Shown here: piece after piece, positions 2,304-25,112 of the stretch
How the letters are laid out: each line of letters begins with the position of its first letter
How positions within the stretch are numbered: position 1 is the stretch's first letter
Assembly: GCA_027064085.1 (NCBI GenBank)
Contig: JAMOQH010000182.1
Coordinates: 1 to 64,000, forward strand
Origin: a bacterium
GTDB lineage: Bacteria > UBP6 > JAFGXH01
DNA length: 64,000 bases
Direction of reading: 5' to 3'
Position numbers and translations under genes: made by a program
Notes under the pieces: generated by a model
Seen by the model: only the letters and a program-made list of their open reading frames with translations
Database searches by the model: none
Told to the model about the DNA's origin: nothing

Positions 2304-2361
2304 TTAAATAACTAAATATTCTTTTTACCAATTTGTTTAAATTTGGAGATAATTAATATAA
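2304..2361. repeat. Direct repeat copy 2: functional 3' end of the RND gene
   Basis: This is the partner of 177-234 (58 bp, 5 mismatches). It covers the last 16 codons and the stop of the RND pump gene plus 8 bp beyond the stop. Confidence 0.75.
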
Positions 2362-5300
2362 AAAAATACTTTATATCATCTAAAATTTTATAAATAACAG
2401 GAATTAAAAATAGTGTTAAAAGTGTTGCAAATCCTATTCCCCATATTATTGTTACTGCCATAGGTTGCCAAGTTTTACTTGCTCCTGTTGCAAAAAATGC
2501 CATAGGAATTAAACCTCCAATAGTTGTTACAGTTGTTAAAACAATTGGCCTTAGTCTTATTACCCCAGCCTCAATTAAAGTTTCTTTTTTGTCCTTATTT
2601 TTATCCTTTAAAATCATTTTATTTATTAAATCAACTAAAATAATACTGTCATTTACCACAATTCCAATTAAAGCTACTAGAGAAATCATTGCCATAAAAG
2701 AAAGTGGTAAGTTTGATAAATGCAAACCTATTGCTACTCCAATTAATGAAAACGGAATTGCTGTTAAAATTATCATTGGCTGTAAAAATGAATTAAATTG
2801 AATTCCTAAAATTGCATAAATAAGAATTAAAGCCATAAAAAAAGCAATTAAAACATCATGAATAGCGTGTTTTTGGTCTTCAGCTTCTCCCTTTAGTGTA
2901 ATATTATATCCAGGATATTTTTTTTCTAAATTAGGCCTTAGTTTGCCAGATATTTTTTTATTAACTTTATTTGATGTAGTTTTTAAAGGATTAATATTTG
3001 CTTTTATTCTTATTTCTCTTATGCCATCTCTTCTTTTGATTTTTGCTAGTTTTTGAACTTCTTTTAATTTTACCAAATCTCCAATTCTAATAAGTTGTCC
3101 TTTTGTTGTTCTTATTGGAAAATTTCTTATATCATCAAGAGAATATTGTTTTTTTCTGTCTAATCTAACCCAAATACTTAATTCTTTACCATCTTTATCT
3201 AGATATTTTCCTGCATATTTTCCTGCTGTAAATCCTCTTACTATAAAAGCGACTTTAGAAAGTGATAAATTAGCTTTATTTAAAGCATCCATATTTGGAA
3301 TTATTTCAATTTGATTGTTTCTTTCTATAATTGAAGACCTTAAATCGACAACACCATCTGTTTTTTTAAGAAATTTTATAATTTTTTCTCCAATTTCAAC
3401 TAATTTATTTAATTCTTCTCCTGTAACAGAAATATCAATTGCTCTTCCTTTTGGAGGCCCATTGGCATTTTCAAAGAATTCAAAACCTACTATTTTAGGC
3501 ATTGAATTTGCCTTTTTTCTCATTTCATTTTTAATTTTTTCCTGAATTTCTTTATCTTCTGTAGTTAAATCCATTCTAAGTTCTGCAACATGTTCTCTAA
3601 CTATCCATCTGTTATCTTCTATTACTCTGCCTGCAATAGAAACAATGGATTTTACATATTTAGGATGGAAATTTTTTAATGTAAATTCTTCTATTTCTTT
3701 TAGGTATTTTATTGTTTCTTTAATATTTGTACTTTCTGGGAGTTCTAATTTTGCATTTAATTTATCTGTTGTAGAAGATGAAAACATTACGATATTCAAA
3801 CTTTTTGCTAAATATATAGAGTATCCTAGTACAATAAAAGATAACACTATAGTTAAATATCTTAATTTTAAAGTCCAAAAGAGTAGTTTTTTGTATAAAT
3901 TAACAATAAGTTCCCACCATTTATTTTTATTATTCTTTTTTTTGTTTAATTTTTTCATTTCATATAAATGAACAGGTAAAACAGTTATTGCCTCTAAAAG
4001 AGATGCAAGTAAGGTAAAAGCAACGATAATAGGCATTTCTCTTAAAAACTTTCCCATTACACCACTAATGGTTAAAAGTGGTAAAAATGCAGCTATTGTC
4101 GTTAGTATTGATGATATAACAGGCCATATAATTTCAGTTGTACCTTTTAATGCTGCATCATAAGAGCTTGCTCCTTCTTCACGATATCTATATACATTTT
4201 CTATTACAACAATTGCATCATCAACAAGCATTCCAGAAACTAAAATCATTGCAAAGATTGATAATGAATTAATAGTATAACCAAAAAAGTACATCATTAA
4301 AAAAGTAGCTAAAAAAGAAAACGGAATGCCAATAACAGCTAAAAGGGCAGGACGCCACCCTAAAAATATTAACAGTAAAATAGCAACTAATACTATTCCT
4401 AGCATTGCATTATTTTTTAAAATAGAAATAGATTTATCAACTCTTTCACCTTGGTCATTTCTATATGAAATATCTATATTTTTTTTGTTATTAATATATT
4501 TTGAAGCAATTTTTTTTAGATTTTTTGTTATTTTAACAATATTTGAGCCATGTTTTCTCATAACATATAAAGAAACTGAGTTTTTGCTATTTAAAAATGC
4601 TTTTACTCCCCCTTTTAGGGCCTGTTTCTTTATTAACGCAATATCACTCAGTTTTAATTGCATTCCCGAATCATTAGTTCTTAATATTATATTTTTTATT
4701 TGCTTTATATTTTTAAAGTTTCCTACTGTTTTTACTATGAATTCTTTTGAATTTACATTTAGTTTTCCGCCGGGAATCCTAAAATTATTTTTATTAATTG
4801 CAAAAACTATATCATCAATAGTTAAGGAATACCTATTTAATTTATCTATGTCTACTTTTATAACTATTTCTTTGTCTTCAACTCCAGCTATTGAAATATC
4901 TTTAATATCCTTTATTTTATTCATTAGTTTTCTTTTGAGATTTTCTGCAATTAGTTTAAATTCTTTAGGAGTATAGTTATCACTTGAAAGCATAATGGAA
5001 ATAATGGGGTCTGTATCTCCTGTTGCTATTTTGTATATATAAGGACCAAACATTTCATTTTTACTTGGCATATTTGGAATTTTATTTATTACTGACTCCA
5101 TATCAGAGATTCTTTGTTCATAATTTTTTACATTTTCAACAAACTTAATCATAAAAACAGATTTTCCAGGTTCAGATTTAGAGGTTATTTCATCAATATC
5201 TTCAACTTTAGTTAAAGCATCTTCAATTGGAATAGTTATAATTCTTTCTATCTCTTCACTTGATGCTCCTGGATACGATGTTACTATTATTGCAAAATCT

Positions 5301-5425
5301 AAATTGACAGCAGGTAGTTCTTCAACGGGAAGTTTTTGTATAGCAATAAAGCCAAATAGTAATACTGATATAAAAATAAAGTGGCTTATAACTCTTTTTT
5401 TTAGGAATAACTTAATTAGATTCAT
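2312..5425 (-). CDS. RND-family inner-membrane efflux pump (HAE1/AcrB-like), system 1
   Basis: At 1037 residues this has the normal length for an AcrB/MdtB-type proton-driven pump. It has an N-terminal membrane helix, a large periplasmic loop, a block of helices containing LVSGMLVDDAIVVIENVY with the paired aspartates of the proton relay, a second periplasmic loop and a second helical block. It should export hydrophobic compounds or lipids through the adaptor at 5422 and the TolC protein at 6521. The start codon overlaps the adaptor's end by 4 nt, so the three genes form one operon. Its last 58 bp are duplicated at 177-234. The substrate cannot be read from sequence. Confidence 0.93.
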   Translation of the reverse strand: MNLIKLFLKKRVISHFIFISVLLFGFIAIQKLPVEELPAVNLDFAIIVTSYPGASSEEIERIITIPIEDALTKVEDIDEITSKSEPGKSVFMIKFVENVKNYEQRISDMESVINKIPNMPSKNEMFGPYIYKIATGDTDPIISIMLSSDNYTPKEFKLIAENLKRKLMNKIKDIKDISIAGVEDKEIVIKVDIDKLNRYSLTIDDIVFAINKNNFRIPGGKLNVNSKEFIVKTVGNFKNIKQIKNIILRTNDSGMQLKLSDIALIKKQALKGGVKAFLNSKNSVSLYVMRKHGSNIVKITKNLKKIASKYINNKKNIDISYRNDQGERVDKSISILKNNAMLGIVLVAILLLIFLGWRPALLAVIGIPFSFLATFLMMYFFGYTINSLSIFAMILVSGMLVDDAIVVIENVYRYREEGASSYDAALKGTTEIIWPVISSILTTIAAFLPLLTISGVMGKFLREMPIIVAFTLLASLLEAITVLPVHLYEMKKLNKKKNNKNKWWELIVNLYKKLLFWTLKLRYLTIVLSFIVLGYSIYLAKSLNIVMFSSSTTDKLNAKLELPESTNIKETIKYLKEIEEFTLKNFHPKYVKSIVSIAGRVIEDNRWIVREHVAELRMDLTTEDKEIQEKIKNEMRKKANSMPKIVGFEFFENANGPPKGRAIDISVTGEELNKLVEIGEKIIKFLKKTDGVVDLRSSIIERNNQIEIIPNMDALNKANLSLSKVAFIVRGFTAGKYAGKYLDKDGKELSIWVRLDRKKQYSLDDIRNFPIRTTKGQLIRIGDLVKLKEVQKLAKIKRRDGIREIRIKANINPLKTTSNKVNKKISGKLRPNLEKKYPGYNITLKGEAEDQKHAIHDVLIAFFMALILIYAILGIQFNSFLQPMIILTAIPFSLIGVAIGLHLSNLPLSFMAMISLVALIGIVVNDSIILVDLINKMILKDKNKDKKETLIEAGVIRLRPIVLTTVTTIGGLIPMAFFATGASKTWQPMAVTIIWGIGFATLLTLFLIPVIYKILDDIKYFFILIISKFKQIGKKNI

Positions 5426-6528
5426 TTGTTTTCCATTATTTTAACAGTTTGGTTATTTTTTAATCCTATATGGCCGTCTTTAATAATTTTATATTCTTTT
5501 TTATTGCTTTTAATTGAAATTATCATATTACCATTATTGTTATCATTTAATAATTTTACTTTAGTTTTAATTGCTTTATTATTTTCTAATAAAAACAAGT
5601 AATAATTATTATCTTCTAATTTTAAAATATCTCTCTTTATTTCAAAAGCATTTTTATATTCTTTTAAAGGTATTTTTATCTTTACTTGTGTTTCATTTAT
5701 TAAATCACAATTACTTATTGTTAATTTTATTGGATATAGTTTCGTAATAGGTTCGGTAGATTCAGAAATACCTATTATACTTGCATCACATTTTGTTTTA
5801 TCTGGAGAAATTACTTCAATTTTATTATTTTTATTATAGGATTTTATAACTAATAAGTCTTCCCAAGTAACTCCAATTATGGCTTCAAAATTTTTATTAT
5901 CTATAATTCTACCTATTGGTGTTCCTATGGTTACAATATCACCTTTTTGTTTATTTCTTGTTGTTATAATTCCATCAAAAGGAGCATATACAAATGATTT
6001 ATCATAATTATTTTTTGCAATATTATAAGCAATAGATGCTTTTTTAAAGGCAAATCCTGCTAAAATTACCCTGTTTTTACTTGCATCAAAGGTTTCTTGA
6101 TTAATAATATTCTTTTTTAACAGTATTTTATCCTTTTCTAATAATGATTTTACATATTTTAATTGATGTTGTGCCTCTTCTTTTATTACTTTTTTTAAGT
6201 CTAAGTCTATTTTTTTTAAACTAGTATCAATTACTGCTAATAATTGACCTTTTTTAACTGTTGTGCCCATATCAAAGCTTAGTGTAGTGATTATTCCACT
6301 TGATTGTGCTACCAAAAAGATATCTTTTTTGGGTTTTAGTATAGAATTATATGATCTTATTTTTATTATATTATGGGGAACTATAGTTTTTATTTTTATT
6401 ATTTTAATAGGAATATTCTTGTTTTTATTGTGCTTACCTTTTTTGGATGAATAAGATGAGGACTTATCTTTATTAACACAAGATAATATTAGCAGTGTTG
6501 ATAATAATATAATTAGTATTTTAGTCAT
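5422..6528 (-). CDS. Periplasmic adaptor (membrane-fusion) lipoprotein, system 1
   Basis: A 368-residue HlyD/AcrA-type adaptor. A lipoprotein signal ends in LLILSC near residue 16, so it should be lipid-anchored. The biotinyl-lipoyl-like motif GTTVKKGQLLAVIDT, an alpha-hairpin of about 60 residues, the mirrored lipoyl half (SFVYAPFDGIITTRNKQKGDIVTIGTPIG) and C-terminal beta-barrel strands follow in the usual order. It bridges the RND pump and the TolC channel. The start overlaps the upstream TolC gene by 8 nt and the stop overlaps the pump gene by 4 nt. Confidence 0.9.
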   Translation of the reverse strand: MTKILIILLSTLLILSCVNKDKSSSYSSKKGKHNKNKNIPIKIIKIKTIVPHNIIKIRSYNSILKPKKDIFLVAQSSGIITTLSFDMGTTVKKGQLLAVIDTSLKKIDLDLKKVIKEEAQHQLKYVKSLLEKDKILLKKNIINQETFDASKNRVILAGFAFKKASIAYNIAKNNYDKSFVYAPFDGIITTRNKQKGDIVTIGTPIGRIIDNKNFEAIIGVTWEDLLVIKSYNKNNKIEVISPDKTKCDASIIGISESTEPITKLYPIKLTISNCDLINETQVKIKIPLKEYKNAFEIKRDILKLEDNNYYLFLLENNKAIKTKVKLLNDNNNGNMIISIKSNKKEYKIIKDGHIGLKNNQTVKIMENK

Positions 6529-7819
6529 GGATATTACCTGAAAGTATTTTTAATTGATAATATGAATTATATATTTGTGTTTTTAAGTTTACTAAGTTAG
6601 TTTCTTTAGATAAACTGTCATTTTCTGCCTTTAATATATCTAATATATTATATTTTCCATGTTTATAGCCTATTTTTATTTGTTCTAGTTTTTCTTGGCT
6701 TAACTTTAAGGCTAATTTTAATGATTTTTTTTGTAATAGTGAATTTTTTAACATATTTATTGCTTTTTTAATAGCTGTTTTTTGATTTTTAATAGTTTCT
6801 TGTAATTGTAATTTGGTATTTGTTAAATCTAGTCTTTTTATTTTATTATCAGTTGAATCACTAAGGGAGTTAAAGATATTAAAACTTAATAATAAAGATA
6901 GTGAATGACCTTTTGTAATAGGAAATTCCCAAAAATTTTCAGTGTATGGGGAGTAATTATATCTTAAATTTATATTAGGCCAGTAATTTTTTTTAGATAA
7001 CTCTAAATTATATTTAGAAAGTTCTAGTATTTCTCTATTTTGTTTAACTATAGGTGAGTTGTTTTCTAGTTTTTTAATAAACAGTGTTATTAATTTGCCT
7101 TTTTCTGTTTTTATAATATTTTGAGGGATTTCGTTTTCTATTGATAATTCAGTAGGCAAAATTTCTTTGTTTATTAAAGATGACATTTCAATAAAAGTAT
7201 TATCTAGTTCCATTTGAGTATTTAGTATAGCTGATTTTCTTTCTTCACAGGATAGTTTAAATGTTAATAAATCAACTTTTACCAGTTTTCCAAGTGTGCT
7301 TAATAATTTTGCATTTTCATAGTTTTTTTGTGCTAAAGCTAGTGACTTTTGAAGTATTTTGAGTTTATTTTGTAGGTTATATGCTTTTATAAATAGTGAA
7401 ATAGCTTGAGACTTTAAATTTAAAATTATAATTTTTAGTTCATATTCGGATAATTTTTTATTGGATTTGTTAATTTTTAATAAGCTAAATCGTTTTTCGC
7501 CTAGAAAAATTGGTAAATTTATAGTTAAGTTTTTGGTCCAACTTGGATTTTGAGGAGCAGGTGAAGAGCTAGGGAGATATTTGCTAAAAGCTGAATTATT
7601 TCTTGAATTTACTGTTGCACCATAATTAAAATCGGCTGTTGGTAAAAAGTTGTTATAGCTTTGTTTTAAAGATAAAGATTTCTTTTTTATTATATTTTTT
7701 TTTATTTTTATGGACAAATTATTATTATTTAACAATTTTAAATAGCTTTTGAAACTCAAATTGTTATCATTTGAGGCATAAATTTGTATAGAAAGTAATA
7801 TGAATAATAAAGTCTTAAT
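6521..7819 (-). CDS. TolC-family outer-membrane efflux protein, system 1, with probable ATT start
   Basis: An outer-membrane channel of about 432 residues with two TolC repeats. The coiled-coil segments include KNYENAKLLSTLGKLVKVDLL and the C-terminal KIGYKHGKYNILDILKAEND, which are typical of the family. The first ATG/GTG/TTG in frame is TTG 7759, but that omits the signal peptide. Upstream, in frame, lies I-KTLLFILLSIQIYA-SNDNN, a textbook signal peptide. It follows GGAG and begins at ATT (7819-7817), with an in-frame stop just before it. So either ATT is used, as in infC, or this position is an ATG-to-ATT change or sequencing error. It is the first gene of efflux operon 1. Confidence 0.85.
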   Translation of the reverse strand: MKTLLFILLSIQIYASNDNNLSFKSYLKLLNNNNLSIKIKKNIIKKKSLSLKQSYNNFLPTADFNYGATVNSRNNSAFSKYLPSSSPAPQNPSWTKNLTINLPIFLGEKRFSLLKINKSNKKLSEYELKIIILNLKSQAISLFIKAYNLQNKLKILQKSLALAQKNYENAKLLSTLGKLVKVDLLTFKLSCEERKSAILNTQMELDNTFIEMSSLINKEILPTELSIENEIPQNIIKTEKGKLITLFIKKLENNSPIVKQNREILELSKYNLELSKKNYWPNINLRYNYSPYTENFWEFPITKGHSLSLLLSFNIFNSLSDSTDNKIKRLDLTNTKLQLQETIKNQKTAIKKAINMLKNSLLQKKSLKLALKLSQEKLEQIKIGYKHGKYNILDILKAENDSLSKETNLVNLKTQIYNSYYQLKILSGNIHD

Positions 7820-7981: not shown

Positions 7982-8479
7982 TTATTTACAAACATCAATC
8001 CATCTATTCTGATTTTCATCAAATTCAGGCTCACATAATTCATATTGAGAGCAACTGTATTCTGTGCATGGATTTTTTTGGCAATCTAATACAGGATGTA
8101 TTCCTGAATAATCATGAATTGGTAAGTAACCAGGATTACATACACAATCTCCCATTGAGTCGCAATGAGTATTATATCCGGTACATGAGCAAGAATTCTG
8201 CTGAGGTCTTTTACATACAAGAACAGGAGTTGTTGCACCACTTGTATCTATATCACTTTCAAATCCAGCATCACAAACACAGTAAGGTTCTCTTTCCCCA
8301 ACAACGCAGTGCTGATTAGCATCACAGTTGTAATTTATACAGGTGTTTTCAACACATGTGTTTCCGCCTTCGGGAATAACCTGACCTGCAGGACATGATG
8401 TATGTGGCCCCGGAGCACAGCTAACTGCCAATAATGTTAATAAAGCGAACAATGATGTTATAAAAGAAGCTCTGTACAT
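7982..8479 (-). CDS. Cys-rich EGF-like lipoprotein
   Basis: A 165-residue secreted protein. The signal peptide ends in LLAVSC, so it should be lipidated at that Cys. The mature part has about 20 cysteines in EGF-like spacing (NTCINYNCDANQHCVV, PYCVCDAGFE, then CSCTGYNTHCDS, CVCNPGYLP, CTEYSCSQYELC). I chose the ATG at 8479 because GGAGG lies 7 nt upstream; the frame opens 12 nt earlier at a TTG that overlaps that site. It has its own strong promoter and terminator, so it is monocistronic. The gene looks clearly richer in G and C than its neighbours. The function is unknown; surface adhesion or protein binding is the usual guess. Confidence 0.8.
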   Translation of the reverse strand: MYRASFITSLFALLTLLAVSCAPGPHTSCPAGQVIPEGGNTCVENTCINYNCDANQHCVVGEREPYCVCDAGFESDIDTSGATTPVLVCKRPQQNSCSCTGYNTHCDSMGDCVCNPGYLPIHDYSGIHPVLDCQKNPCTEYSCSQYELCEPEFDENQNRWIDVCK

Positions 8480-8554
8480 AAATACCTCCAAAAGTATGAG
8501 CTAGTAGAAAACAGTCTGAAATGTAAAGTCTTTTCTTACACTCGCTGTACCTAT

Positions 8555-8710: not shown

Positions 8711-8739
8711 TTGATATATCAATTGCTTTATGTTATGTT
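8711..8739 (+). promoter_or_regulatory. Possible promoter of the 8.7-18 kb gene run
   Basis: TTGATA (8711-8716) and TATGTT (8734-8739) are 17 bp apart. If used, the first gene would have to start downstream of the ATG at 8730, for example at TTG 8775. The match is only moderate. The rest of 8584-8729 shows no clear signal beyond T-rich stretches. Confidence 0.35.
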
Positions 8740-8774
8740 TTCTAGCTAGATTTATTAGTCTATGGGGGAACTAT

Positions 8775-9188
8775 TTGGAGTGGAATATTCATCCTTTTAA
8801 GGAAGAGCCTTTGAAATCATTATTCTTATCTGTTTTTTTATTGATGTTATTCATTATTTTGTTTTTAATCTTTCCTAATATTCCTTTTGTATTTGCTTCA
8901 ATAATTGTAATGATTTTATCATTAAGAGGTTATTTGTTTAAATCTAAGTATAAATTAGAGCCTGAAAATTTAACTGTTAAAATGCTAGTTTTTGAATATA
9001 AAAAAAAGTATATTGATTTTAAAAGAGTTTATATTGGTAAATCTGCTTTTTTAATGTCTCCTTTTACATATAAAACAAAATTAAATAGATATAGAGGTAT
9101 ATATATACCTTTTCCGGAAAATTTAAGAGAGAATGTTATTACATTTATTAGTGGGAAATTTGAAGATGTCGTTATCACAGAAGGATAA
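8775..9188 (+). CDS. Small membrane protein, PH-like C-terminus (hypothetical)
   Basis: Not recognised by name. Two hydrophobic helices (LKSLFLSVFLLMLFIILFLIF and IPFVFASIIVMILSL) are followed by a cytoplasmic strand-rich part (YIDFKRVYIGKSAFLMSP, RYRGIYIPFPENLRENVITFI). The shape recalls bacterial PH-domain membrane proteins. The frame is open from an ATG at 8730, but GGGGGAA lies just ahead of TTG 8775, which I prefer; the choice is uncertain. The 3' end overlaps the next gene by 23 nt, so it is probably the first gene of the long run of overlapping genes that follows. Confidence 0.6.
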   Translation: MEWNIHPFKEEPLKSLFLSVFLLMLFIILFLIFPNIPFVFASIIVMILSLRGYLFKSKYKLEPENLTVKMLVFEYKKKYIDFKRVYIGKSAFLMSPFTYKTKLNRYRGIYIPFPENLRENVITFISGKFEDVVITEG

Positions 9189-9507
9189 AAAACTTATTGA
9201 TACTTATGCAATAAAGTTAGTGAATAAAGGTTGGGGCACAATGGCAATAATGTTTTTTGATTCAACAAAATATTTAAGTAATATTGGAAGTCAGTTATTG
9301 CATGTTTTGAGTCCTACTTTAACAATGATTCCATATCTTAATAACTTTTTTAAAGATTCTGACCAAATTTCAGAAATTCTTGAAGATAGAGATAATGTAG
9401 AGTATTTTATTACTAGAATTGAATACTTTATGAATGAAGAGAGTAAAGCAAAAGAAAACAAGAGGAAATTATTAGATAAAAATAATGATGGAGCAAAACA
9501 TGAGTGA
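9166..9507 (+). CDS. Hypothetical protein of 113 residues
   Basis: Not recognised. It starts at the ATG at 9166, inside the previous gene (23-nt overlap), and ends 8 nt inside the next one. The middle part (NKGWGTMAIMFFDSTKYLSNIG, then LLHVLSPTLTMIPYLNNFF) is moderately hydrophobic and could be an amphipathic or membrane-associated helix pair. The C-terminal part (SEILEDRDNVEYFITRIE) is acidic and the tail is highly charged. Translational overlap on both sides suggests it is made together with the MutL-like ATPase. Confidence 0.65.
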   Translation: MSLSQKDKKLIDTYAIKLVNKGWGTMAIMFFDSTKYLSNIGSQLLHVLSPTLTMIPYLNNFFKDSDQISEILEDRDNVEYFITRIEYFMNEESKAKENKRKLLDKNNDGAKHE

Positions 9508-11353
9508 TGAAAACAAGAAAAATCTTGATATCAATGTAATTGTTGCGACTGATTGTGGAAGTACCACGACAAAAGCAATTCTTATTCAAAAAATTCAAGA
9601 TGAAACAGGAAAATGGGTTTATAGACAAACTTTTAGAGGAGAAGCTCCAACAACAGTTGAAGCTCCTTTTGAAGATGTTACCATGGGCGTTTTAAATGCA
9701 ATTAATGAATTAGAAGATTTGAGTGGCTTAAAAATTCTAGATGATGATAATAACATTATCAGACCAGCAAAAGGTAAAATTGGTACAGATGTTTACATTT
9801 CAACATCTAGTGCAGGTGGTGGTCTTCAAATGATGGTTACTGGTGTTGTTAGAAATATGTCAGCAGAGTCCGCAGAAAGAGCGGCTCTAGCTGCTGGTGC
9901 AATTGTTATGGATGTAATAAGTGCAAATGATAAAAGGCTTGCTCATGAACAAATAGAACGAATTAGGCAACTTAGGCCGGATATGATGTTGCTAGCTGGA
10001 GGGATTGATGGAGGAACGAAATCTCATGTTATGGAAATGACAGAACTTGTTTCTGCTGCTGCACCACAACCAAGGCTTGGTGGATTATTACCTATTATCT
10101 ATGCTGGAAACCAAGATGTTGTAGAGGCTGTTAAAGATAAACTTGGAGCAAAAACAGATTTATCAATTGTTGATAATGTTAGACCAACCCTTGATGATGA
10201 AAATATTGCCCCTGCAAGAGATAAAATACATGATTTATTTATGGAACATGTTATGGCTCAAGCTCCTGGATATAAAAAACTTATGAAGATGACTGATGTT
10301 CCTATTATGCCTACTCCTGGTGCAGTTGGTTTAATTATGGAAGAAATTGCCAAAAGAGATGGTATAAATGTTGTTGGTGTTGATATTGGAGGAGCTACAA
10401 CAGATGTATTTTCTGTTTTTGATACTAAATTTAACAGAACCGTTTCTGCAAACTTAGGTATGAGTTACTCTATATCAAATGTTTTTGCTGAAGCTGGACT
10501 TCCAAATGTTATGCGTTGGGTTCCATTTAATATGAATGAAAAACAACTAAGAAATTCAATTAAGAATAAAATGATTAGGCCTACTACTATTCCTCAAAAA
10601 CTTGAGGATTTAGTATTGGAACAAGCTGTTGCAAAAGAAGCATTAAGGCTTTCTTTTGTTCAACATAGAGAATTTGCAACAGAACTAAAAGGAACTCAGA
10701 AGAAAAGAACAATTTCTGATGCTTTTGCACAAGGAGGAGGAGATGGTTCTTTAATTAATATGATGCGTTTGGATATGCTTGTTGGTAGTGGTGGAGTTTT
10801 ATCACATGCTCCTAAAAGGGTTCAGACTGCTTTAATGCTTTTGGATTCATTTCAACCAGAAGGATTTACAACATTAACTGTTGATTCTATTTTTATGATG
10901 CCTCAACTTGGTGTTTTAACGGAAATATCTCCTGAAGCTGCTGTACAGGTTTTTGAAAGAGATTGTATTATTTATCTTGGTGAGTCTATTGCTCCAGTTG
11001 GGCATGCTAAAAAGAAAGATGATATAATTGCAGAATATAAAATAGAAATGCCAGATGGTAAAATAATTACTGAAAAATTAAAGTATGGCTCAATGAAAAA
11101 ATATCCTCTTGCTGTTGGAGAAAAAGCTAAATTAACAATTACTCCAAATGCTAAGTTTGATATGGGGGCAGGTAAAGGTAAATCGATGACTAAAGAAGTA
11201 AGTGGGGGTGTTGTTGGTCTGATTATTGATGGCCGAGGAAGACCCTTAAATTTACCGACTGAAGCCTCAGAAAGAGTTAGGAAATTAACCGAGTGGATGG
11301 AAGAGTTAGAGATTTATCCAACTAAAGTATTTAAAGATAATAAGGAGGTATAA
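9500..11353 (+). CDS. MutL/GlmL-type ASKHA ATPase
   Basis: A 617-residue protein of the glutamate mutase MutL family (unrelated to mismatch-repair MutL). The N-terminal ATDCGSTTTKAIL is the phosphate-1 motif. STSSAGGGLQMMVTGVVR and MSAESAERAALAAGA are family blocks, and GVDIGGATTDVFSVF is the phosphate-2 motif. The ATG at 9500 is preferred over 9485 because GGAG lies 6 nt upstream. Characterised relatives are encoded with B12-dependent aminomutases and are thought to act as reactivating chaperones. No mutase gene is present in this window, and the partners here are membrane proteins. I infer that this copy powers or assembles the membrane complex encoded downstream. Confidence 0.85.
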   Translation: MSDENKKNLDINVIVATDCGSTTTKAILIQKIQDETGKWVYRQTFRGEAPTTVEAPFEDVTMGVLNAINELEDLSGLKILDDDNNIIRPAKGKIGTDVYISTSSAGGGLQMMVTGVVRNMSAESAERAALAAGAIVMDVISANDKRLAHEQIERIRQLRPDMMLLAGGIDGGTKSHVMEMTELVSAAAPQPRLGGLLPIIYAGNQDVVEAVKDKLGAKTDLSIVDNVRPTLDDENIAPARDKIHDLFMEHVMAQAPGYKKLMKMTDVPIMPTPGAVGLIMEEIAKRDGINVVGVDIGGATTDVFSVFDTKFNRTVSANLGMSYSISNVFAEAGLPNVMRWVPFNMNEKQLRNSIKNKMIRPTTIPQKLEDLVLEQAVAKEALRLSFVQHREFATELKGTQKKRTISDAFAQGGGDGSLINMMRLDMLVGSGGVLSHAPKRVQTALMLLDSFQPEGFTTLTVDSIFMMPQLGVLTEISPEAAVQVFERDCIIYLGESIAPVGHAKKKDDIIAEYKIEMPDGKIITEKLKYGSMKKYPLAVGEKAKLTITPNAKFDMGAGKGKSMTKEVSGGVVGLIIDGRGRPLNLPTEASERVRKLTEWMEELEIYPTKVFKDNKEV

Positions 11354-12483
11354 TGGGGCATGCTTATACACCAGGCCTTAAGGTTACCAAAAGAGCTGTT
11401 GTAAGAAAACAAAGACTTCTACCTATTAAGGGTGATGTTTTAGTGAAAAAAGGTGACAAAGTGAAACCAAATGATATTGTTGCAAAAACAGAGTTGCCAG
11501 GTATAGTATTACCGGTTAATCTTGCAAATAGATTAGGTGTTTTACCTGCTGATGTACCATCTATTGTAACAATAAAAGAAGATCAAAGAGTAGAGGCTGA
11601 AACAACAATTGCAACAAGTAAGTCCTTTTTCGGACTTTTTACAAACGAGTATAAAACTCCAATTGCTTCTACCCTTGAATCAGTATCTAATATCACCGGG
11701 CAATTGATTTTGAGAGGAGATCCCATTCCTGTTGAAGTAAGGGCATATATTACTGGTACTGTAACAGAAATCTTTCCTGAAGAAGGAGTTATGATTGAAG
11801 AAGTTGCGGCTTATATTCAAGGTATTTTTGGAATAGGTGGTGAAGTTGATGGTACTCTTGAAGTGATTAGTGAAACTCTTGATGATGTTGTTGATGAACA
11901 CAAAATAAAGCCTGAACATAAAGGAAAGATTTTAGTTGCAGGTTCACTTGTTACTGGGGCTGCTCTAAATAAAGCTGTTGAGTATGGTGTAAGTGGCATT
12001 ATTACTGGCGGTTTTGAAGATCAAGATTTAAAAGCTTTTTTAGGTTATGATATTGGTGTTGCAATTACAGGAACTGAAGAAAAGGGTATCTCTTTGGTTG
12101 TAACAGAGGGATTTGGGCAAATTAAAATGGCTCCTAGAACTTTTAATTTATTAAAATCTCATAATGGACATTTGGTTTCAATAAATGGTTCAACTCAAAT
12201 TAGAGCTGGCGTTATCAGACCAGAAGTTATTATTCCTCTTGGTGAAGAACTTCAAGCAGATATTCCATCTGCTGAATCAGAAGGAGCTGCATTGAAAATT
12301 GGTGCATATTTAAGGATAATTAGAAGGCCTAATTTTGGTGAAATCGGAGTTGTAACTGAATTGCCACCAGATCCAACTAAATTAGATTCTGGAACTTATG
12401 CAAGAATTTTAAAGTTAAAATTAAATAAAAATGGTGAAGAGGTTATTGTTCCAAGAAGTAATGTTGAAATGATAGAGGAATAA
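11353..12483 (+). CDS. Barrel-sandwich-hybrid protein of the MutL-like cluster
   Basis: A 376-residue protein with no signal peptide or membrane helix. Residues about 20-50 (LLPIKGDVLVKKGDKVKPNDIVAKTELPG) look like a biotinyl-lipoyl-like barrel-sandwich motif, as in RnfC, NqrA or efflux adaptors. A second such piece (GTVTEIFPEEGVMIE) lies near residues 133-148. The middle has alternating strands and helices (KILVAGSLVTGAALNKAVEYGVSGIITGG). The C-terminus (NFGEIGVVTELPPDPTKLDSG, then EEVIVPRSNVEMIE) is KOW-like. I do not know a name for this family. The ATG overlaps the ATPase stop by 1 nt, behind AAGGAGG, so strict co-expression is expected. Confidence 0.8.
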   Translation: MGHAYTPGLKVTKRAVVRKQRLLPIKGDVLVKKGDKVKPNDIVAKTELPGIVLPVNLANRLGVLPADVPSIVTIKEDQRVEAETTIATSKSFFGLFTNEYKTPIASTLESVSNITGQLILRGDPIPVEVRAYITGTVTEIFPEEGVMIEEVAAYIQGIFGIGGEVDGTLEVISETLDDVVDEHKIKPEHKGKILVAGSLVTGAALNKAVEYGVSGIITGGFEDQDLKAFLGYDIGVAITGTEEKGISLVVTEGFGQIKMAPRTFNLLKSHNGHLVSINGSTQIRAGVIRPEVIIPLGEELQADIPSAESEGAALKIGAYLRIIRRPNFGEIGVVTELPPDPTKLDSGTYARILKLKLNKNGEEVIVPRSNVEMIEE

Positions 12484-12485
12484 TT

Positions 12486-13919
12486 ATGAGATATATATTA
12501 ATATTTTTGTTTTTGGTGAGTGCAAATATGTTATTTGCACAAAATTCCGATAAAAAAGAAGTAAATAAAACTTCTGATGTAACTATTAGTAAGGATAAGC
12601 CACAGGCTTCTCCTACGAAAAATACAATAGGAGATAAAAAAGAAGAAGCTGTACAAGAAGTTGCACAGGAAGAAAAGAAGTATGAATCATCTATTTTTAA
12701 ATTAGAGAATCACAAAGAAAATCTTAGTGGAGTAAAATATTTTATAAAAGATGAAAATCTAAAAATTCCTACAAATTTTACAGTGAAAGATATTGATAAT
12801 GATGGTGGGGGGATTGTTATATTGTCATGGAAATATCCACTAGAAGATAATGCTGAGTTTTTTGAAATATTAAGACGCTCTGAAAAAGAAAAAGAATTTA
12901 AAAAAATAGCAACAATAAAAGCTAATAAAAAGGAATTTGTTGTTAAAAAAGTAGTTAAAGCAACTAAAAAAACTTCTAAAAAAGTAAAAAAAGCAAAGGA
13001 CTTAAGTCTTTATGCTTTTAGAAATGCTGGATTAAATGATGACTTACATTATTTTTATAAAATAGTAGTAAAAAAAGATGGAAGATTTAATGAAACAAAA
13101 GAAGTAAAGGTTCAATCTTTAGTTGCTATTTTTGATGCAAACAAGACTTCTGTACTTATTGCTGCAATATTTTTGACTTTTGCTATTGTGTTCTTTATTA
13201 AAATGGCTAGGTCCGGTAAAAAACTTTATATCAGAAGAATTGCAGGTTTAGATGCTGTTGACGATGCTGTTGGGCGTGCTACTGAAATGGGTAGAGAAAT
13301 TATGTTTGTTCCTGGTATTGGAGATATAGATGACCCTCAAACAATCGCTGGTTTAACAATACTTGGAAGAGTTGCAAAATTAACTGCTCAGTATAAAACG
13401 CCATTATCTGTTCCTGTCTCTAAATCAATGGTAATGGTTACAGGAAGAGAAATTGTTAAAGAATCATATTTGAGTATGGGAAGGCCAGAAAATTTTCAAA
13501 GTGGAATGGTTTATTATTTAACTGATGACCAATTTGGCTTTGCTGCTGGTGTTGATGGTATTATGGTTAGAGAAAAACCTGCTACAATATTTTTACAAGG
13601 TAGTTTCTTTGCAGAATCATTAATTTTAGCAGAAACAGGTCATCATGTTGGAGCTATTCAGATTTCAGGAACAGCTGCACCATCTCAATTACCTTTCTTT
13701 ATCACGGCATGTGATTATACTCTTATGGGCGAAGAATTATATGCTGCAAGTGCATATCTTTCAAGAGAGCCGCAATTACTAGGTTCATTAAGAGGACAGG
13801 ATGCCGGTAAAGCAATTATCTTAGCTGCTATCATTATTGGGATAGTGTTAGAAACAATAGCTGCCGTTAATCCTGATTTGCAGTGGTTGAGTATTAAACA
13901 CTATTTTCATATTAAATAA
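12486..13919 (+). CDS. Fn3-containing membrane protein with DUF6754-like cytoplasmic domain
   Basis: A 477-residue protein. A signal peptide (ILIFLFLVSANMLFA) is followed by a Lys/Glu-rich linker (20-75) and a fibronectin type III-like domain (about 95-215, with ILSWKYPLEDNAEFFEILR and HYFYKIVVKKDG). A membrane helix at about 221-240 (SVLIAAIFLTFAIVFFIKMA) comes next, then a conserved domain (IRRIAGLDAVDDAVGRAT, EMGREIMFVPGIGDIDDPQT) and a last helix near 441-460. I associate the conserved part with the uncharacterised family DUF6754, from memory. It starts 2 nt after the previous stop. The Fn3 part should be outside the membrane and the conserved part inside. Confidence 0.8.
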   Translation: MRYILIFLFLVSANMLFAQNSDKKEVNKTSDVTISKDKPQASPTKNTIGDKKEEAVQEVAQEEKKYESSIFKLENHKENLSGVKYFIKDENLKIPTNFTVKDIDNDGGGIVILSWKYPLEDNAEFFEILRRSEKEKEFKKIATIKANKKEFVVKKVVKATKKTSKKVKKAKDLSLYAFRNAGLNDDLHYFYKIVVKKDGRFNETKEVKVQSLVAIFDANKTSVLIAAIFLTFAIVFFIKMARSGKKLYIRRIAGLDAVDDAVGRATEMGREIMFVPGIGDIDDPQTIAGLTILGRVAKLTAQYKTPLSVPVSKSMVMVTGREIVKESYLSMGRPENFQSGMVYYLTDDQFGFAAGVDGIMVREKPATIFLQGSFFAESLILAETGHHVGAIQISGTAAPSQLPFFITACDYTLMGEELYAASAYLSREPQLLGSLRGQDAGKAIILAAIIIGIVLETIAAVNPDLQWLSIKHYFHIK

Positions 13920-13931
13920 AAGGAGAGATTA

Positions 13932-15719
13932 ATGCGTAAGGAAATACCTTTATTTATTACTGGACTTGTTGGTATAGTCCTAATATTACAATATTTTAGT
14001 CCTAATAAATCAATTAATGGTTTAGAGGGAATCTTTACAAATTGGATGCAAATTATTGCTGCATTTAGTATGATTTTAGGAGTTTTAAACCTTATCAGGG
14101 TTAATGGTGATAAAATATATAAAAAAAGAAAAAATTGGGGATTTAGTATTGTAATTATTGTATCTTTGTTTGCTACGCTAATTATTGGTTTTGCCAATAT
14201 TGGTGGTAAGTCAATGTATAATAGAAAAATTTTAAGGACTAACGGAACAGTTGTTGGTAATATAACTAAAGATGTGATGTCTCATAATGGTTTTAAAGTT
14301 ACTGATGCTAGTTTTGGTATTATGTTTAAAGCTTTAGTTGATGCAACACAAAAAGAAAAGACAATTTCATCTATTCTTCCTAAAAGTTTAAAAACAGGAG
14401 ATTTGAGAGCTAAATTTGACAAAATGCTTCCTATAGTTAGAAAAAGAAGTCATAAATCAATAGAAATTGTTAATAATATTGGTAGGCAAGTAAATGTTGA
14501 ATTAGAGTCTTCTTTAAAAAAGATGAATTCACAAAGTTTTAATGAGTCAATTTTAAGAGTTTATGATAATTTAGAAAAAACTATATTAGAAGAGAATAAA
14601 AATTTTAAATTAGAAAATAAAAAATTAATTGATGAAAATATAAAAGCTCAATTAGCATTTTTATTTAAAAATATTGATACAGCTAATTCAAACTTAAAGT
14701 ATTATAAAGATATTAAAGTATTTATAACCGAATTTAATGATTTTTTATCTAAAGATAAAGATTTAATTGCAAAATTAGATGAAAATATTAAGAATTCTAA
14801 GAGCTATAATGATTTTTATAAAAAATCCTCTGTTTTATTTGCTTTAAAGCAAAATAATAAACTTAATGACTTTTTACTAAAAAACATACTAGATACATAT
14901 TTAAATAATATTTATGTTGCTAAAAGTTATAAAAATGCTAAGGTTAATATATTAAAATCATTATCAGGAAATAAAGATTTAATAAATGCTCTTACATTAA
15001 ACATTGAAAATAAATTAACTCAGCAATATATTAAAGACTTTAATAAATATGTAAGTAATACAGAGCAGTATATATCAGGTAATAAATATGTGAAAGGTGA
15101 TGCGATTATAAAAGCTACATATAAACCTATAATTGCTAAATTATATACTACTGAGAAAAAGAAAATTGCAAGTGTTATTTCAGCAGAGCTTAAATCTCCT
15201 GCTTTGTTAAAAAAATTAAAAGTTAATCAGCTTTTTTTGACAAGTTTAATAAAAAATTCAAAATCAGAAGTAACTGCTTTAGGTATATCTGAAAAAAGCA
15301 GTGAGTTTATTATGCAAAAATTATTGGAAGGTGGTGGAGAGTATAAATTATATACTCTTGAAGTTGGTTCTTCATTTATGGAAATATATAGATATATTTT
15401 TACTCCTCTTTCTTCAACAATGTTTGCGTTATTGGCCTTTTTTGTTGCATCTGCATCATACAGAGCATTTAGAGCTAGAAATAAGGAAGCTACTTTATTA
15501 TTGGTTGCAGGATTTTTAGTTATGCTAGGAGCTGTACCTATTGGTGAAATGTTATCAATTCCCGGAGTGTTTTCTGTAGCAGAAGTATCTGACTTTATTA
15601 TGAATGTTCCTGTTATGTCGGTTCAGAGTGGAATTATGATAGGGGTAGCACTTGGCGTTATTTCTACATCTCTTAGACTTATCTTAGGAATAGAACGAAG
15701 CCATTTAGGAGGTGATTAA
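13932..15719 (+). CDS. Large six-helix membrane protein with long helical insert
   Basis: A 595-residue protein. Three predicted helices lie near residues 5-22, 38-55 and 72-91, and three near 489-510, 518-540 and 558-585. Between them lies a Lys/Asn/Ile-rich, mostly helical segment of about 390 residues. The C-terminal block is the most conserved-looking part (SYRAFRARNKEATLLLVAGF, VSTSLRLILGIERSHLGGD-like ending) and is likely the functional core. AGGAGAG precedes the ATG. The stop overlaps the next start (TAATG). I do not recognise a named family. The insert may act as an extracytoplasmic or cytoplasmic stalk. Confidence 0.75.
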   Translation: MRKEIPLFITGLVGIVLILQYFSPNKSINGLEGIFTNWMQIIAAFSMILGVLNLIRVNGDKIYKKRKNWGFSIVIIVSLFATLIIGFANIGGKSMYNRKILRTNGTVVGNITKDVMSHNGFKVTDASFGIMFKALVDATQKEKTISSILPKSLKTGDLRAKFDKMLPIVRKRSHKSIEIVNNIGRQVNVELESSLKKMNSQSFNESILRVYDNLEKTILEENKNFKLENKKLIDENIKAQLAFLFKNIDTANSNLKYYKDIKVFITEFNDFLSKDKDLIAKLDENIKNSKSYNDFYKKSSVLFALKQNNKLNDFLLKNILDTYLNNIYVAKSYKNAKVNILKSLSGNKDLINALTLNIENKLTQQYIKDFNKYVSNTEQYISGNKYVKGDAIIKATYKPIIAKLYTTEKKKIASVISAELKSPALLKKLKVNQLFLTSLIKNSKSEVTALGISEKSSEFIMQKLLEGGGEYKLYTLEVGSSFMEIYRYIFTPLSSTMFALLAFFVASASYRAFRARNKEATLLLVAGFLVMLGAVPIGEMLSIPGVFSVAEVSDFIMNVPVMSVQSGIMIGVALGVISTSLRLILGIERSHLGGD

Positions 15720-16579
15720 TGGAAAAGTTTTTTGAAAAATTATTAAATATAGATAGAAAAATAATATTTTTACTTATTGCTTTGTCTACATCCGTACCTT
15801 TGTTTTATTTTTATCCTCAAAAGATTATTGCAAATAAAGCATCAAGAAAATATAATGATGCTATAAATAAATTAGAAGAAAAAACTAAAAAAGGGGAAGA
15901 AGTTGTTGTTCTTATCTCTGGTGAATATGATCCTGGTACAGTACCTGAGTTATCTCCAATGGCAAGAGCAACAATTAAAAAATTATTAGATATGAAAGTT
16001 AAAATTATTATTATGGGGCTTGTTCCTATGGGGCCGCCATTGTTAATGGAAGAATTTAATGAGTTATTAAAAGAACCTAAATATTCTGATGTTAAATATG
16101 GTATAGACTATGTTAATTTGGGATATACAGTCGGTAATGCTGTTGTTATTAAAGGTATGGTTAAAAATATAAAAGATAAATATCCTGTAGATGTTATGGG
16201 TACAGACTTAAATGAACTTCCACTTATGAGAAAAGTTAAAAACTTTGATAACATAGATATGATAGTTAATTTTTCCTCTATGGGTGGTGGAGTTAAAACA
16301 TGGATACAGTTTGCTAAAAAGACAACTGAAGAAAGTATGGACATCGTCTTTGGTTGTACTGGAGTTATGGTTCCTGAATCATATCCATATTTAAATTCAG
16401 GGCAAATTCAAGGTTTGTTAGGTGGATTAAAAGGTGCTGCTGATTATGAATCATTAATTAAAGAGCCTAAAAATGCAACAAAGTATATTTTTGCTCAGTC
16501 TATTGCACATGTTATCATTATGCTTTTTATTATTATTGGTAATATAGCATTTTTTGTAACAAGAAAGAAAAGAGTTTAG
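15719..16579 (+). CDS. Membrane-anchored alpha/beta-domain protein of the MutL-like cluster
   Basis: A 286-residue protein. There is one N-terminal helix (IIFLLIALSTSVPLFYFYP) and one C-terminal helix (SIAHVIIMLFIIIGNIAFFV), which frame a soluble domain of about 215 residues. That domain has Rossmann-like alternation (EEVVVLISGEYDPGT, VKIIIMGLVPMGPPL, YVNLGYTVGNAVVIKGM, MDIVFGCTGVMVPESYPY). No catalytic motif is recognisable. It begins at the 1-nt overlap with the previous gene. With both ends anchored, the domain lies on one face of the membrane, by topology most simply the outer face. The family is unknown to me. Confidence 0.75.
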   Translation: MEKFFEKLLNIDRKIIFLLIALSTSVPLFYFYPQKIIANKASRKYNDAINKLEEKTKKGEEVVVLISGEYDPGTVPELSPMARATIKKLLDMKVKIIIMGLVPMGPPLLMEEFNELLKEPKYSDVKYGIDYVNLGYTVGNAVVIKGMVKNIKDKYPVDVMGTDLNELPLMRKVKNFDNIDMIVNFSSMGGGVKTWIQFAKKTTEESMDIVFGCTGVMVPESYPYLNSGQIQGLLGGLKGAADYESLIKEPKNATKYIFAQSIAHVIIMLFIIIGNIAFFVTRKKRV

Positions 16580-16589
16580 GAGGATATAA

Positions 16590-17222
16590 ATGAGTACTGA
16601 AATAGGAATTTGGGTAGCAGGTTTTTTAACATTAGCAATAATGTCCTTCTTGTATAAAGATAATCCTGTTTACAAAGCAGCGGAGGCAATATTTTTAGGC
16701 GTTTCTGCTGGTTACTGGACAGTTTATATGTTTTTTAATGTAGTAAAGCCATTATTAATAGATAATTTAGTTAAGGGCAATTTTTGGTATTTAATACCAT
16801 TGGTATTAGGCCTTATGATGCTCGCAAGGCTTCTTCCTAATATTGGGTGGATTTCAAGATGGCCACTTGCCTTTGTTATTGGTATTACCGCAGGATTAAA
16901 CTTTTACGCTTTTCTTGCTTCTGATGTTATAGGGCAAATTGAAGGTGCAATTAAGCCGTTAAATAACTGGGGTGGTGAACATCTGCTTAAGAGTCAAGGG
17001 CTTTGGAATACTCTTGCATCAATTGGGGTTATATCAACTCTAGTTTATTTCTTTTTCTCAAAAGAACATAAGGGATTATTTGGTAAAACCGCTGGAATTG
17101 GTATTTTATTTATTATGGTCGGATTTGGTGGTTCATTTGGATATACCGTTATGGCAAGGATATCGTTATTAATTGGTAGAATGTATTTTATCTTTTCTAC
17201 ATGGTTAGGCCTAGCAAGTTAG
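16590..17222 (+). CDS. Polytopic membrane protein of the MutL-like cluster
   Basis: A 210-residue, very hydrophobic protein with about six helices (IGIWVAGFLTLAIMSFLY, AIFLGVSAGYWTVYMFF, FWYLIPLVLGLMMLARLLP, LAFVIGITAGLNFYAFL, TLASIGVISTLVYFFF, IGILFIMVGFGGSFGYTV). AGGAGG stands 6 nt ahead of the ATG. Conserved-looking charged positions are few. It is probably the membrane core partner of the 595- and 286-residue proteins. No named family is recognised. It ends 3 nt before the rhomboid gene. Confidence 0.75.
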   Translation: MSTEIGIWVAGFLTLAIMSFLYKDNPVYKAAEAIFLGVSAGYWTVYMFFNVVKPLLIDNLVKGNFWYLIPLVLGLMMLARLLPNIGWISRWPLAFVIGITAGLNFYAFLASDVIGQIEGAIKPLNNWGGEHLLKSQGLWNTLASIGVISTLVYFFFSKEHKGLFGKTAGIGILFIMVGFGGSFGYTVMARISLLIGRMYFIFSTWLGLAS

Positions 17223-17225
17223 TAA

Positions 17226-17891
17226 ATGTTTTCTTTTCCGAAATTAACTAAATTAGCTAAAATATTAATTATTCTGAATGTTATTTTATGGGTAATTGAA
17301 GTAATTTTACTTAGAACTTCGTATTCCGATATTATAACTTCTATGTTTTTGACTCCTAAAGATGTTATGGGGGGGAAGGTTTGGCAATTATTAACTTATA
17401 GCTTTTTTCATTCACCTAATAATATTTTTCATCTAGTTTTAAATATGCTTGTGTTGTATTTCTTTTCTTATGATTTAGAAATTAAATGGGGTAAAAGGCG
17501 CTTTGTATTTTTTTATTTAATATCAGCATTGGTTGGAGGTATTTTTGTTGTATTAGAATCACTTTTTTTTATTACCAGCCATTATACTATTCCAACTTTA
17601 GGAGCAAGTGCTTCAATTTTTGCCCTAACAACGGCCTATGCACTATCTTATTCTAACAGAGAGATTTATTTTTTTATCTTTCCAATAAAAGCGAAATATC
17701 TAATTCATATTGATTTGGCTATAATTATCTTAAGTTATTTGTCAATTTCTAGCTCAAATATTTCTAATGCTGCTCATTTAGGTGGTATGTTTTCTGCATT
17801 TATGCTTATTAAGTTGCCTTGGTATAAATTATTTAAAAGAAAGGTTCATAAAAAAGAAAAAGTTACTGAATATTTAAGAAGAGTTAAATAA
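17226..17891 (+). CDS. Rhomboid-family intramembrane serine protease
   Basis: A 221-residue protein with six or so helices. Rhomboid hallmarks are the WQLLTYSFFHSP stretch, HLVLNMLVLYFF (His and Asn of the oxyanion region), the nucleophile Ser128 in GASAS and the base His184 in AHLGG. The usual motif is GxSG; here the residue after Ser is Ala, a conservative change. Rhomboids cleave helices inside the membrane. It starts 3 nt after the preceding membrane-protein gene, so its substrate may be a member of this cluster (inference). Confidence 0.85.
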   Translation: MFSFPKLTKLAKILIILNVILWVIEVILLRTSYSDIITSMFLTPKDVMGGKVWQLLTYSFFHSPNNIFHLVLNMLVLYFFSYDLEIKWGKRRFVFFYLISALVGGIFVVLESLFFITSHYTIPTLGASASIFALTTAYALSYSNREIYFFIFPIKAKYLIHIDLAIIILSYLSISSSNISNAAHLGGMFSAFMLIKLPWYKLFKRKVHKKEKVTEYLRRVK

Positions 17892-18978: not shown

Positions 18979-20745
18979 ATGCCCTCTTTAAAGGTTAGTT
19001 TTAGTAATTCAGATCAAACATTAATCTTTCCTATTTTTAAAAAGTTAACAACAATAGGAAATGATATAGATAATGATATATATATACCAGATATAACAAT
19101 GTCTCCTTTACATGCTAATATTTTGTTTGATGGAGATAATTATTATCTTCACTCTATAAATAAGTCTCAAATATATTTTAATAAAAAGAAAACTAAAAAG
19201 CATAAGTTTTCAGAATATGATAAATTTATAATGGGAGCAACCATATTTGAGTTTATTCTACGAGACGAAGAGTTGGTTGAAGATTATGATAAAACAGTAG
19301 TAGACCAAAATATATATAAAAAGCTTTTAGAATTAAGTGATAGTATTCTTGAAATTAAAGAATTTGATATGTTACTTGAAAAATTACTTGATATGATAAT
19401 ATCTTTAGTGCAAGCAGAAAAGGGTTACATTTTAATATTTAAAGGAAAAGATATTGTTTCTGCTGCTGCAAGAAATATAAAAAAAGAAAATATTGGTAAT
19501 CCACTAAGAGAACTATCCGATTCTATAATTGCCAAAGTGATAGAATCAGGAAAACCCATTATTATTAGTGATGCGTTAAATGATACAATATTTGGAAGTT
19601 CAAAATCTATAATTAATTTAAAATTAAGCTCTGTTTTATCTGCTCCTTTAAAGTCAGGTAGTGATTTAATAGGTTTAATCTATCTAGGTAATAATAGTGT
19701 TACTCACCTTTTTGAACATGAATCACTAGAAGCTCTAACTATTTTTGCGGCTCTTACTTCTCTAATTGTTCAAAATGCTTTTCTATTAAATCAATTAGAT
19801 ATAAAAAATGATGATAAGTTTAAAATGAAATATGGGAATATTATTGGCTCAAGCCCTAAAATGAAAGCAGTTTTTGATAAAATTGATAAAGTGGCACCTA
19901 CTGATATATCTGTATTAATAACGGGAGAAACAGGTACAGGAAAAGAGTTGGTTGCTCAAGAAATTCATCATAACAGTGATAGAAGTGATAAGCCTTTTAT
20001 TATTGTCAACTGTGCTGCTATTCCTGAAAATTTAATGGAGTCTGAATTTTTTGGTCATAAAAAAGGTTCTTTTACCTCTGCTGTTTCAGATAGTAAGGGT
20101 AAATTCCTTTCTGCAAATACTGGTACAATTTTCTTAGATGAAATTGGAGAAATGCCTTTAAGTTTGCAAGCTAAACTTTTAAGAGTTTTACAAGAAAAGA
20201 TAGTGACACCGGTTGGCGATACAATAGAGCACTATGTTGATGTTAGGGTTATTGCGGCAACAAATAAAAACTTACCAGAAGAGGTGATAAAAGGTCGTTT
20301 TAGAGAAGATTTACTTTATAGATTAAATGTTATTCAGATTGAAATACCTCCATTGTCTCAAAGAGATGATGATATTGAAATTTTAGCTAAATACTTTTTA
20401 AATAAATTTTCTCAAAAATATAAAAAGAAAGTTGTTGGATTTTCTCCTAAAGCAATTGAAATAATGAAAAAATATTCATGGTTTGGAAATGTTAGAGAAT
20501 TAGAAAATAAAGTAAAAAAAGCTGTAGTTTTATCAGATAAGGTACATATTACTGAAGAATTACTTGGTATTACTGATAAGGCTATGGAAGGAATAAAACC
20601 ATTAAGTATTGCAAAACAAGAATTTCAAAAAGAATATATTATGAATGCCCTTAATAAAAACAATGGGAATAAGGCTAAAACAGCAAGAGAATTAGAGATT
20701 GATGTAAGAACTATTTTTAGATATTTGGAAAAAACAATGCCATAA
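18979..20745 (+). CDS. FHA-GAF-AAA+ sigma54-type activator with Fis-like HTH
   Basis: A 588-residue protein. An FHA domain (about 1-95; phosphothreonine binding) is followed by a GAF domain (about 115-275), an AAA+ domain and a C-terminal Fis-type helix-turn-helix (about 545-585, [23 protein letters not shown]). The AAA+ domain has Walker A GETGTGKE near 315, Walker [11 protein letters not shown] and the arginine-finger region [12 protein letters not shown]. The sigma54-contact loop, normally GAFTGA, reads GSFTSA near 363-368, with two of six positions changed. The FHA domain suggests control by a Ser/Thr kinase, as in myxobacteria. Two lipoprotein genes follow directly. Confidence 0.92.
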
Positions 20746-24614: not shown

Positions 24615-25112
24615 ATGATTATTGTTCCTAAAAGTACAAAGAAATATAACAGAAAGTCAATTCGTTTAAATGGTTATGATTATGCCCAAGGTGGATTATA
24701 TTTTATTACAATAAATACATATCATAATCAATATTTATTTGGTGAAATCAAGAATGAAGTAATGATATTAAATGCGCCTGGAAAAATGATAAATGCAATG
24801 TTTAGTGAAATTGAAAATGAGTTTGAGTATGTTATTATTACAGAATCTGTTGTAATGCCTAATCATGTTCATTTTATTGTTAAAATAGCAGGAAAGCCTA
24901 ATAATATCGTATCATTAGGTGATGTAATTCAAATGTTCAAACGATATTCAACAGTTAAATATATTGAAAACGTAAAAAAGAATAATTGGGGTAGGTTTAT
25001 TGGTAAAGTTTGGCATAGAAATTATTATGAACACATAATCAGAAATGAAAAGGATTATGAAAGAATAGCCAAATATGTAAGAGAAAATCCAAAGAATTGG
25101 GGTAGAAAATAG
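24615..25112 (+). CDS. REP-associated tyrosine (Y1/IS200-like) transposase
   Basis: A 165-residue RAYT-class protein. The opening RKSIRLNGYDYAQGGLYFITINTYH is diagnostic of the group. The HUH metal motif is HVH in MPNHVHFIV, and the Tyr candidate lies in KDYERIAKYVRENPKNW. The length is normal and the frame intact. These enzymes nick single-stranded REP sequences. Hairpins of REP type lie just downstream (25134-25154). Confidence 0.88.
   Translation: MIIVPKSTKKYNRKSIRLNGYDYAQGGLYFITINTYHNQYLFGEIKNEVMILNAPGKMINAMFSEIENEFEYVIITESVVMPNHVHFIVKIAGKPNNIVSLGDVIQMFKRYSTVKYIENVKKNNWGRFIGKVWHRNYYEHIIRNEKDYERIAKYVRENPKNWGRK

Follow-up and report, generated by a model that had tools for sequence, protein, structure and literature searches.

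A packed gene set encoding a MutL-family ASKHA protein and four membrane proteins, one of them with a DUF6754 domain, recurs in many little-known bacterial phyla

The gene run and its surroundings

The DNA analysed here, called the window below, is a bacterial stretch of 64,000 nucleotides (contig JAMOQH010000182.1, positions 1 to 64,000). It harbors eight genes, named A to H, that occupy positions 8730-17222, all on the plus strand and overlapping or at most 12 nt apart in the list of open reading frames (ORFs), followed by a gene for a rhomboid:

8730-9188, plus strand: ORF A; start possibly at TTG 8775
9133-9507, plus strand: ORF B; overlaps A
9485-11353, plus strand: ORF C; overlaps B
11353-12483, plus strand: ORF D; 1 nt in common with C
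12486-13919, plus strand: ORF E; 2 nt gap after D
13932-15719, plus strand: ORF F; 12 nt gap after E
15719-16579, plus strand: ORF G; 1 nt in common with F
16590-17222, plus strand: ORF H; 10 nt gap after G
17226-17891, plus strand: rhomboid (PF01694, E 1e-23); 3 nt gap after H

The tightly packed, same-strand run described in an earlier, sequence-only reading of the window was borne out, all the ORFs named there being found, overlapping or abutting and on the plus strand. The same gene order was found again in 79 loci, far above what chance would give. Homologues of A align only from about residue 16, which corresponds to an in-frame TTG at 8775 inside the ORF, and a start at this codon, as first read, is therefore plausible. 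The rhomboid had been counted as a member of the set, which the profile searches did not confirm: it is packed against H in the window alone, and none of 88 other loci has it next to the set, so that it was left out of the system. A rhombosortase as part of the system was likewise discarded, with a score of 30.6 bits for a cut-off of 84 and no conservation with the set.

Several other genes of the window lie close to the run. Upstream and divergent from it, an RND efflux operon (2312-7759, minus strand) encodes an AcrB-type pump (PF00873, E 2e-185) as well as, judged by eye, a membrane-fusion-like protein and a TolC-like outer-membrane factor. A cysteine-rich, EGF-like lipoprotein (7982-8491, minus strand) is encoded immediately upstream of the cluster, and a further EGF-like protein at 26002-28155 (minus strand). 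Two genes downstream of the rhomboid lies a regulator with FHA, GAF, sigma54 activator and HTH domains (18979-20745, plus strand), a candidate regulator of nearby genes; the gene before it encodes a 298-aa protein that matches nothing in Pfam. An IS200-like Y1 transposase (24615-25112, plus strand) is encoded about 7 kb past the cluster.

The window's phylum was represented by 27 other genomes, two of them from the same family, and neither E nor D was found in any. Since these relatives lack the system, a horizontal gain by this genome is likely and constitutes the simplest reading; repeated loss among the relatives is a possible alternative. The C protein of the window shares 67% identity with its counterpart in a Zixiibacteriota genome (L062). 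The GC content is 28-34% over the cluster versus 22-32% elsewhere in the window, and the gain may be old or the GC content ameliorated. No sign of a defence system, or of plasmid or viral cargo, was seen; the only match of the set in PADLOC-DB, of A to DarG (E 0.039), was at chance level.

E, F, G and H as a jointly duplicated module

The reading of E as a membrane protein with Fn3 and DUF6754 domains proved correct. E is a full-length member of DUF6754 (PF20539; E 1e-119, 398.9 bits for a gathering score of 27), and its model matches Fn3 structures (VIA-align Z 12.8, rmsd 2.7, 106 residues aligned). The mean pLDDT of this model is middling (72.6), and a fold search with the whole model returned Fn3 matches only. 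From its N-terminus, E is predicted to comprise a signal or transmembrane (TM) segment, a periplasmic Fn3 domain, a TM helix (residues 223-241 by hydropathy), the alpha/beta domain DUF6754, probably cytosolic, and a last TM helix (residues 443-461). A crotonase- or ClpP-like fold of DUF6754, proposed on visual inspection of the motif ACDYTLIGEE, received no support among PDB sequences. Similarly, a fusion of DUF6754 to an S49 peptidase (L139:4324-6708, minus strand; loci L139 and L146) was dismissed as a real architecture: it was seen in a single genome and in one of the 20 S49-bearing ORFs read, and is probably an assembly chimera, because the others have a different N-terminus without DUF6754.

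The remaining three proteins have no Pfam match above cut-off in the window, and no Pfam family recurs in the H family. According to family alignment, hydropathy and charge, F would consist of three TM helices, an extracytoplasmic loop and three further TM helices, and in the window an insert of about 390 aa, specific to the lineage, enlarges this loop and brings the protein to 595 aa versus the usual 205-230. G is predicted to hold a Rossmann-like alpha/beta domain between two TM helices, placed in the periplasm by the positive-inside rule. Its model is confident (mean pLDDT 94.1), and its best PDB match, the CODH epsilon subunit (VIA-align Z 8.6, rmsd 3.2, 142 aligned), is borderline, with many unrelated folds scoring Z 7-8. 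Both E and G could be seen as an alpha/beta domain framed by TM helices, and homology between them was discarded for lack of profile similarity (hhalign probability 4%). Family alignment and hydropathy suggest that H is polytopic, with five or six TM helices.

Loci with E were collected from whole genomes and named genome contigs, the latter yielding 577 confirmed relatives, and 79 loci were kept. They span about 20 phyla, the carriers including Zixiibacteriota, Cloacimonadota, Stahlbacteria/WOR-3, Fermentibacteria, Poribacteria, Latescibacterota, Eisenbacteria, Neomarinimicrobiota, Coatesbacteria, Edwardsbacteria, a record labelled Caldithrix abyssi (L048) and others. In nearly all loci the order E-F-G-H was recovered by profile searches, often as two to four tandem copies, for a total of 111 complete modules with median gaps of 12, 1 and 1 nt. 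A-B and C-D adjoin the module in part of the loci only. When the nearest E was sought in another locus with several modules, the same module was also the nearest by F (59/59), G (57/59) and H (54/59). E, F, G and H are thus kept together and duplicate as a unit. A test set beforehand, whether core genes recur without the flanking genes, was therefore positive: to the modules themselves can be added that D tracks E and that C is found fused to D, as detailed below.

Periplasmic parts vary on otherwise constant modules. Many E homologues have Fn3 and some lack it, and the loop of F may bear an FG-GAP beta-propeller-type insert, as in L051:19407-21179 (plus strand), at the place of the unrelated insert of the window's F. 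Variable domains of this kind would also be expected if E-F-G-H were an envelope receptor whose signal is passed to the cytoplasm by C-D as a nucleotide-switched relay. Such a sensing function would also suit two proteins encoded after the module in WOR-3, one with DUF4388 and a second, small and soluble, that looks roadblock-like by eye and has no Pfam match. However, the 25 neighbour families listed of 103 include no recurrent kinase, cyclase or DNA-binding partner, and a receptor would not need as many as four membrane proteins whose polytopic parts are large. We rank this explanation third and hold it to be quite improbable.

The soluble proteins and their relation to the modules

C matches the Pfam family MutL over the entire profile (PF13941, positions 1-450 of 450; E 5e-124, 414.8 bits for a cut-off of 27). 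The ASKHA motifs are conserved in its family, with phosphate-1 in 43 of 44 proteins and both phosphate-2 and the adenosine motif GSGG in all 44, which supports the prediction that C binds ATP. The initial description as a MutL/GlmL-type ASKHA ATPase hence stands for the MutL family and the ATP motifs; C scores below the curated cut-offs for GlmL (NF040745, 224.8 of 475 bits), for the GlmL subfamily (TIGR01319, 164.7 of 204.05) and for OR-4 (NCBIfam, 216 of 600 bits). GlmL is an accessory protein of methylaspartate mutase and OR-4 acts in ornithine degradation; no subunits of B12-dependent mutases were noticed among the 25 of 103 neighbour families listed. C also has an additional C-terminal region of about 130 residues, in which homology to the barrel-sandwich of D was sought and not found. 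A cross-match of the D profile to C was ascribed to a fused member (locus L084) or to profile drift.

D is a soluble protein that would be made of an N-terminal barrel-sandwich-like part, an RraA-like alpha/beta middle and a KOW-like C-terminus. It had been called a barrel-sandwich protein; the window's own D stays under the cut-off for the RnfC_N/NqrA_N barrel-sandwich (13.3 of 25.6 bits), and seven of 11 family members match it weakly (best E 2e-5). KOW matches in the family are weak too, as are those to RraA and SPT5 among PDB profiles. The flavin/NADH or Fe-S domains of RnfC had no Pfam match in D or its homologues.

C and D are fused in one Neomarinimicrobiota genome (L084), and L137:3465-6308 (minus strand) encodes a second, fused C-D-like paralogue of 947 aa with several barrel-sandwich-like segments. 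Five or more other genomes of the same phylum have long D-like ORFs akin to the latter. In ten loci from the phylum of genome G036, apparently Zixibacteria judging by gene content and the named loci, C and D are separated by the gene of a signal-peptide protein of about 260 aa that has no Pfam match and is PsbP-like by eye (L118:7210-8001, plus strand, and relatives).

The two small proteins accompany the set in part of the loci. A, with two N-terminal TM helices by hydropathy and a small soluble tail, has homologues in 14 other loci, where they adjoin B and usually also C or E. B is soluble, and its homologues in 22 other loci are mostly found beside C or E.

Presence and absence tie D to E. 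Both occur in the same seven of 41 genomes of a first sample and in the same eight of 21 genomes of another phylum. Pooling the patchy lineages (61 genomes), 14 genomes have both and 47 have neither (Fisher p 4e-14, relatedness ignored), and the two co-occur even where they are on different contigs. C is present in six of the seven E-bearing genomes of the first sample; in G034, a genome listed with 100% completeness, D and three E-F-G-H modules were found and C was not detected. In the phylum of G036, E was present in all 118 genomes, mostly in four to six copies, and D in 111 of them, usually in one copy.

These data bear on the possibility that unrelated housekeeping genes are merely held together by slow genome rearrangement. 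The free variation of genes outside the module could be read in this way, but duplication as a unit, a distribution over about 20 phyla and the perfect co-occurrence of E and D in patchy lineages, including on different contigs, stand against it, and we strongly disfavour this explanation as very improbable. On the contrary, A to H very likely represent one functional system. This claim rests on inheritance, namely duplication as a unit, the joint presence or absence of E and D, and the fusion of C to D.

The proposal that the genes form one complex is retained in part: the genes belong together, but C-D often lie elsewhere, on another contig than the E-F-G-H modules, these modules exist in several copies, and the rhomboid is out. 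As C-D are usually single and the modules several, we read them as one soluble pair common to several membrane modules.

The pair may alternatively be a chaperone, similar to GlmL/EutA-type reactivases, that loads or repairs E-F-G-H and spends ATP per repair and not per turnover, the work being done by E-F-G-H itself as a membrane enzyme or carrier. Membership of C in the family that holds GlmL (PF13941) speaks for this explanation, reactivase roles being a known theme of the GlmL branch. A single D per genome with several modules fits a common maturation service, and the fold of G is of a Rossmann-like cofactor type, with the borderline match to CODH epsilon mentioned above. Yet C remains under the cut-offs for GlmL, its subfamily and OR-4, and no cofactor motif was identified in E to H. 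We consider this main rival rather unlikely.

In some lineages, neighbouring genes weakly hint at a function alongside Tol/TonB-type machines. Several loci in families f20 and f23 have TolQ-TolR-TolA-TolB-Pal directly after C-D; E-H are followed by DUF4388 and ExbB-ExbD-TonB in WOR-3, and H by an outer-membrane receptor and ExbB-ExbD-TonB in Fermentibacteria. Of 18 genomes sampled, seven have TolQ no more than about 1.2 kb away from D, and all seven belong to f20 and f23, so that the Tol link may be a lineage-specific gene order. Adjacency to Tol-Pal, limited to few lineages, was thus rejected as proof of function, and a link of the system to Tol/TonB function seems unlikely. The other operonic neighbours present no common theme among the 25 of 103 families listed.

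A possible mechanism and its likeness to known systems

In our best explanation, to which we give about an even chance, A to H would form a co-inherited inner-membrane system of diderm bacteria in which the C-D pair drives several modules. Omp85 was present in all 15 E-bearing genomes tested, which are thus diderm; this does not discriminate, because most genomes are diderm whether or not they have E. The ATP motifs and the predicted topology would fit an envelope machine, and arguments for and against an ATP-coupled membrane complex appear evenly balanced. C and D would work in the cytosol as an ATPase and its adaptor, docking as a pair on the DUF6754 domain that each E exposes there. Binding and hydrolysis of ATP by C could then alter the state of the F/H membrane bundle, which would pass the change to the periplasmic parts, i.e., the Fn3 of E, the loop of F and the Rossmann-like domain of G. 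One energising pair might in this manner serve several substrate modules, and, as the periplasmic domains differ between modules, each of them is probably dedicated to a separate client or cargo in the envelope. Known MutL/GlmL-type ASKHA ATPases are accessory or reactivating proteins and not transport motors, which counts against C as a motor. We propose only tentatively, at somewhat less than an even chance, a new class of ATP-driven envelope machines in which a soluble MutL-type ASKHA ATPase and the adaptor D power several interchangeable modules of four inner-membrane proteins, each module having recognition domains of its own in the periplasm; the machine would be essential or nearly so in at least one phylum.

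The retention of E in 118 of 118 genomes with several paralogous copies, and the spread over about 20 phyla, imply that the system should serve something basic in the envelope. A literature search that covered few subscription journals gave no mention of DUF6754, PF20539 or PF13941, and nothing relevant on envelope genes of Zixibacteria. The system, in which a soluble ATPase and its partner go with a constant set of four inner-membrane proteins and which is passed on as a unit in many little-known phyla, seems previously undescribed. The MutL branch of ASKHA ATPases would gain a membrane role, and unannotated genes of common uncultured phyla become one testable system. This system can probably also move as a unit, as the genome of the window seems to have gained it.

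Likeness to characterised systems is partial. With the GlmL/MutL family, C shares membership in PF13941 and the ASKHA ATP motifs, but it differs by its links to membrane proteins and D, its extra C-terminal region and its scores below the cut-offs. D is weakly similar to RnfC/NqrA in its N-terminal part, whereas its remainder is RraA-like and KOW-like. Tol-Pal and TonB-ExbBD are trans-envelope machines that adjoin C-D or E-H in some lineages without sequence relation to them, and they are powered by the proton gradient, in contrast to C with its ATP motifs. Group II ECF transporters offer an analogy only, as one soluble ATPase pair is shared by several paralogous membrane modules; there is no homology, the ATPase being of the ABC type in those transporters and ASKHA here. 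Finally, DUF6754, of which E is a full-length member, was a family without known function that is now given constant partners in F, G and H and shared partners in C and D.
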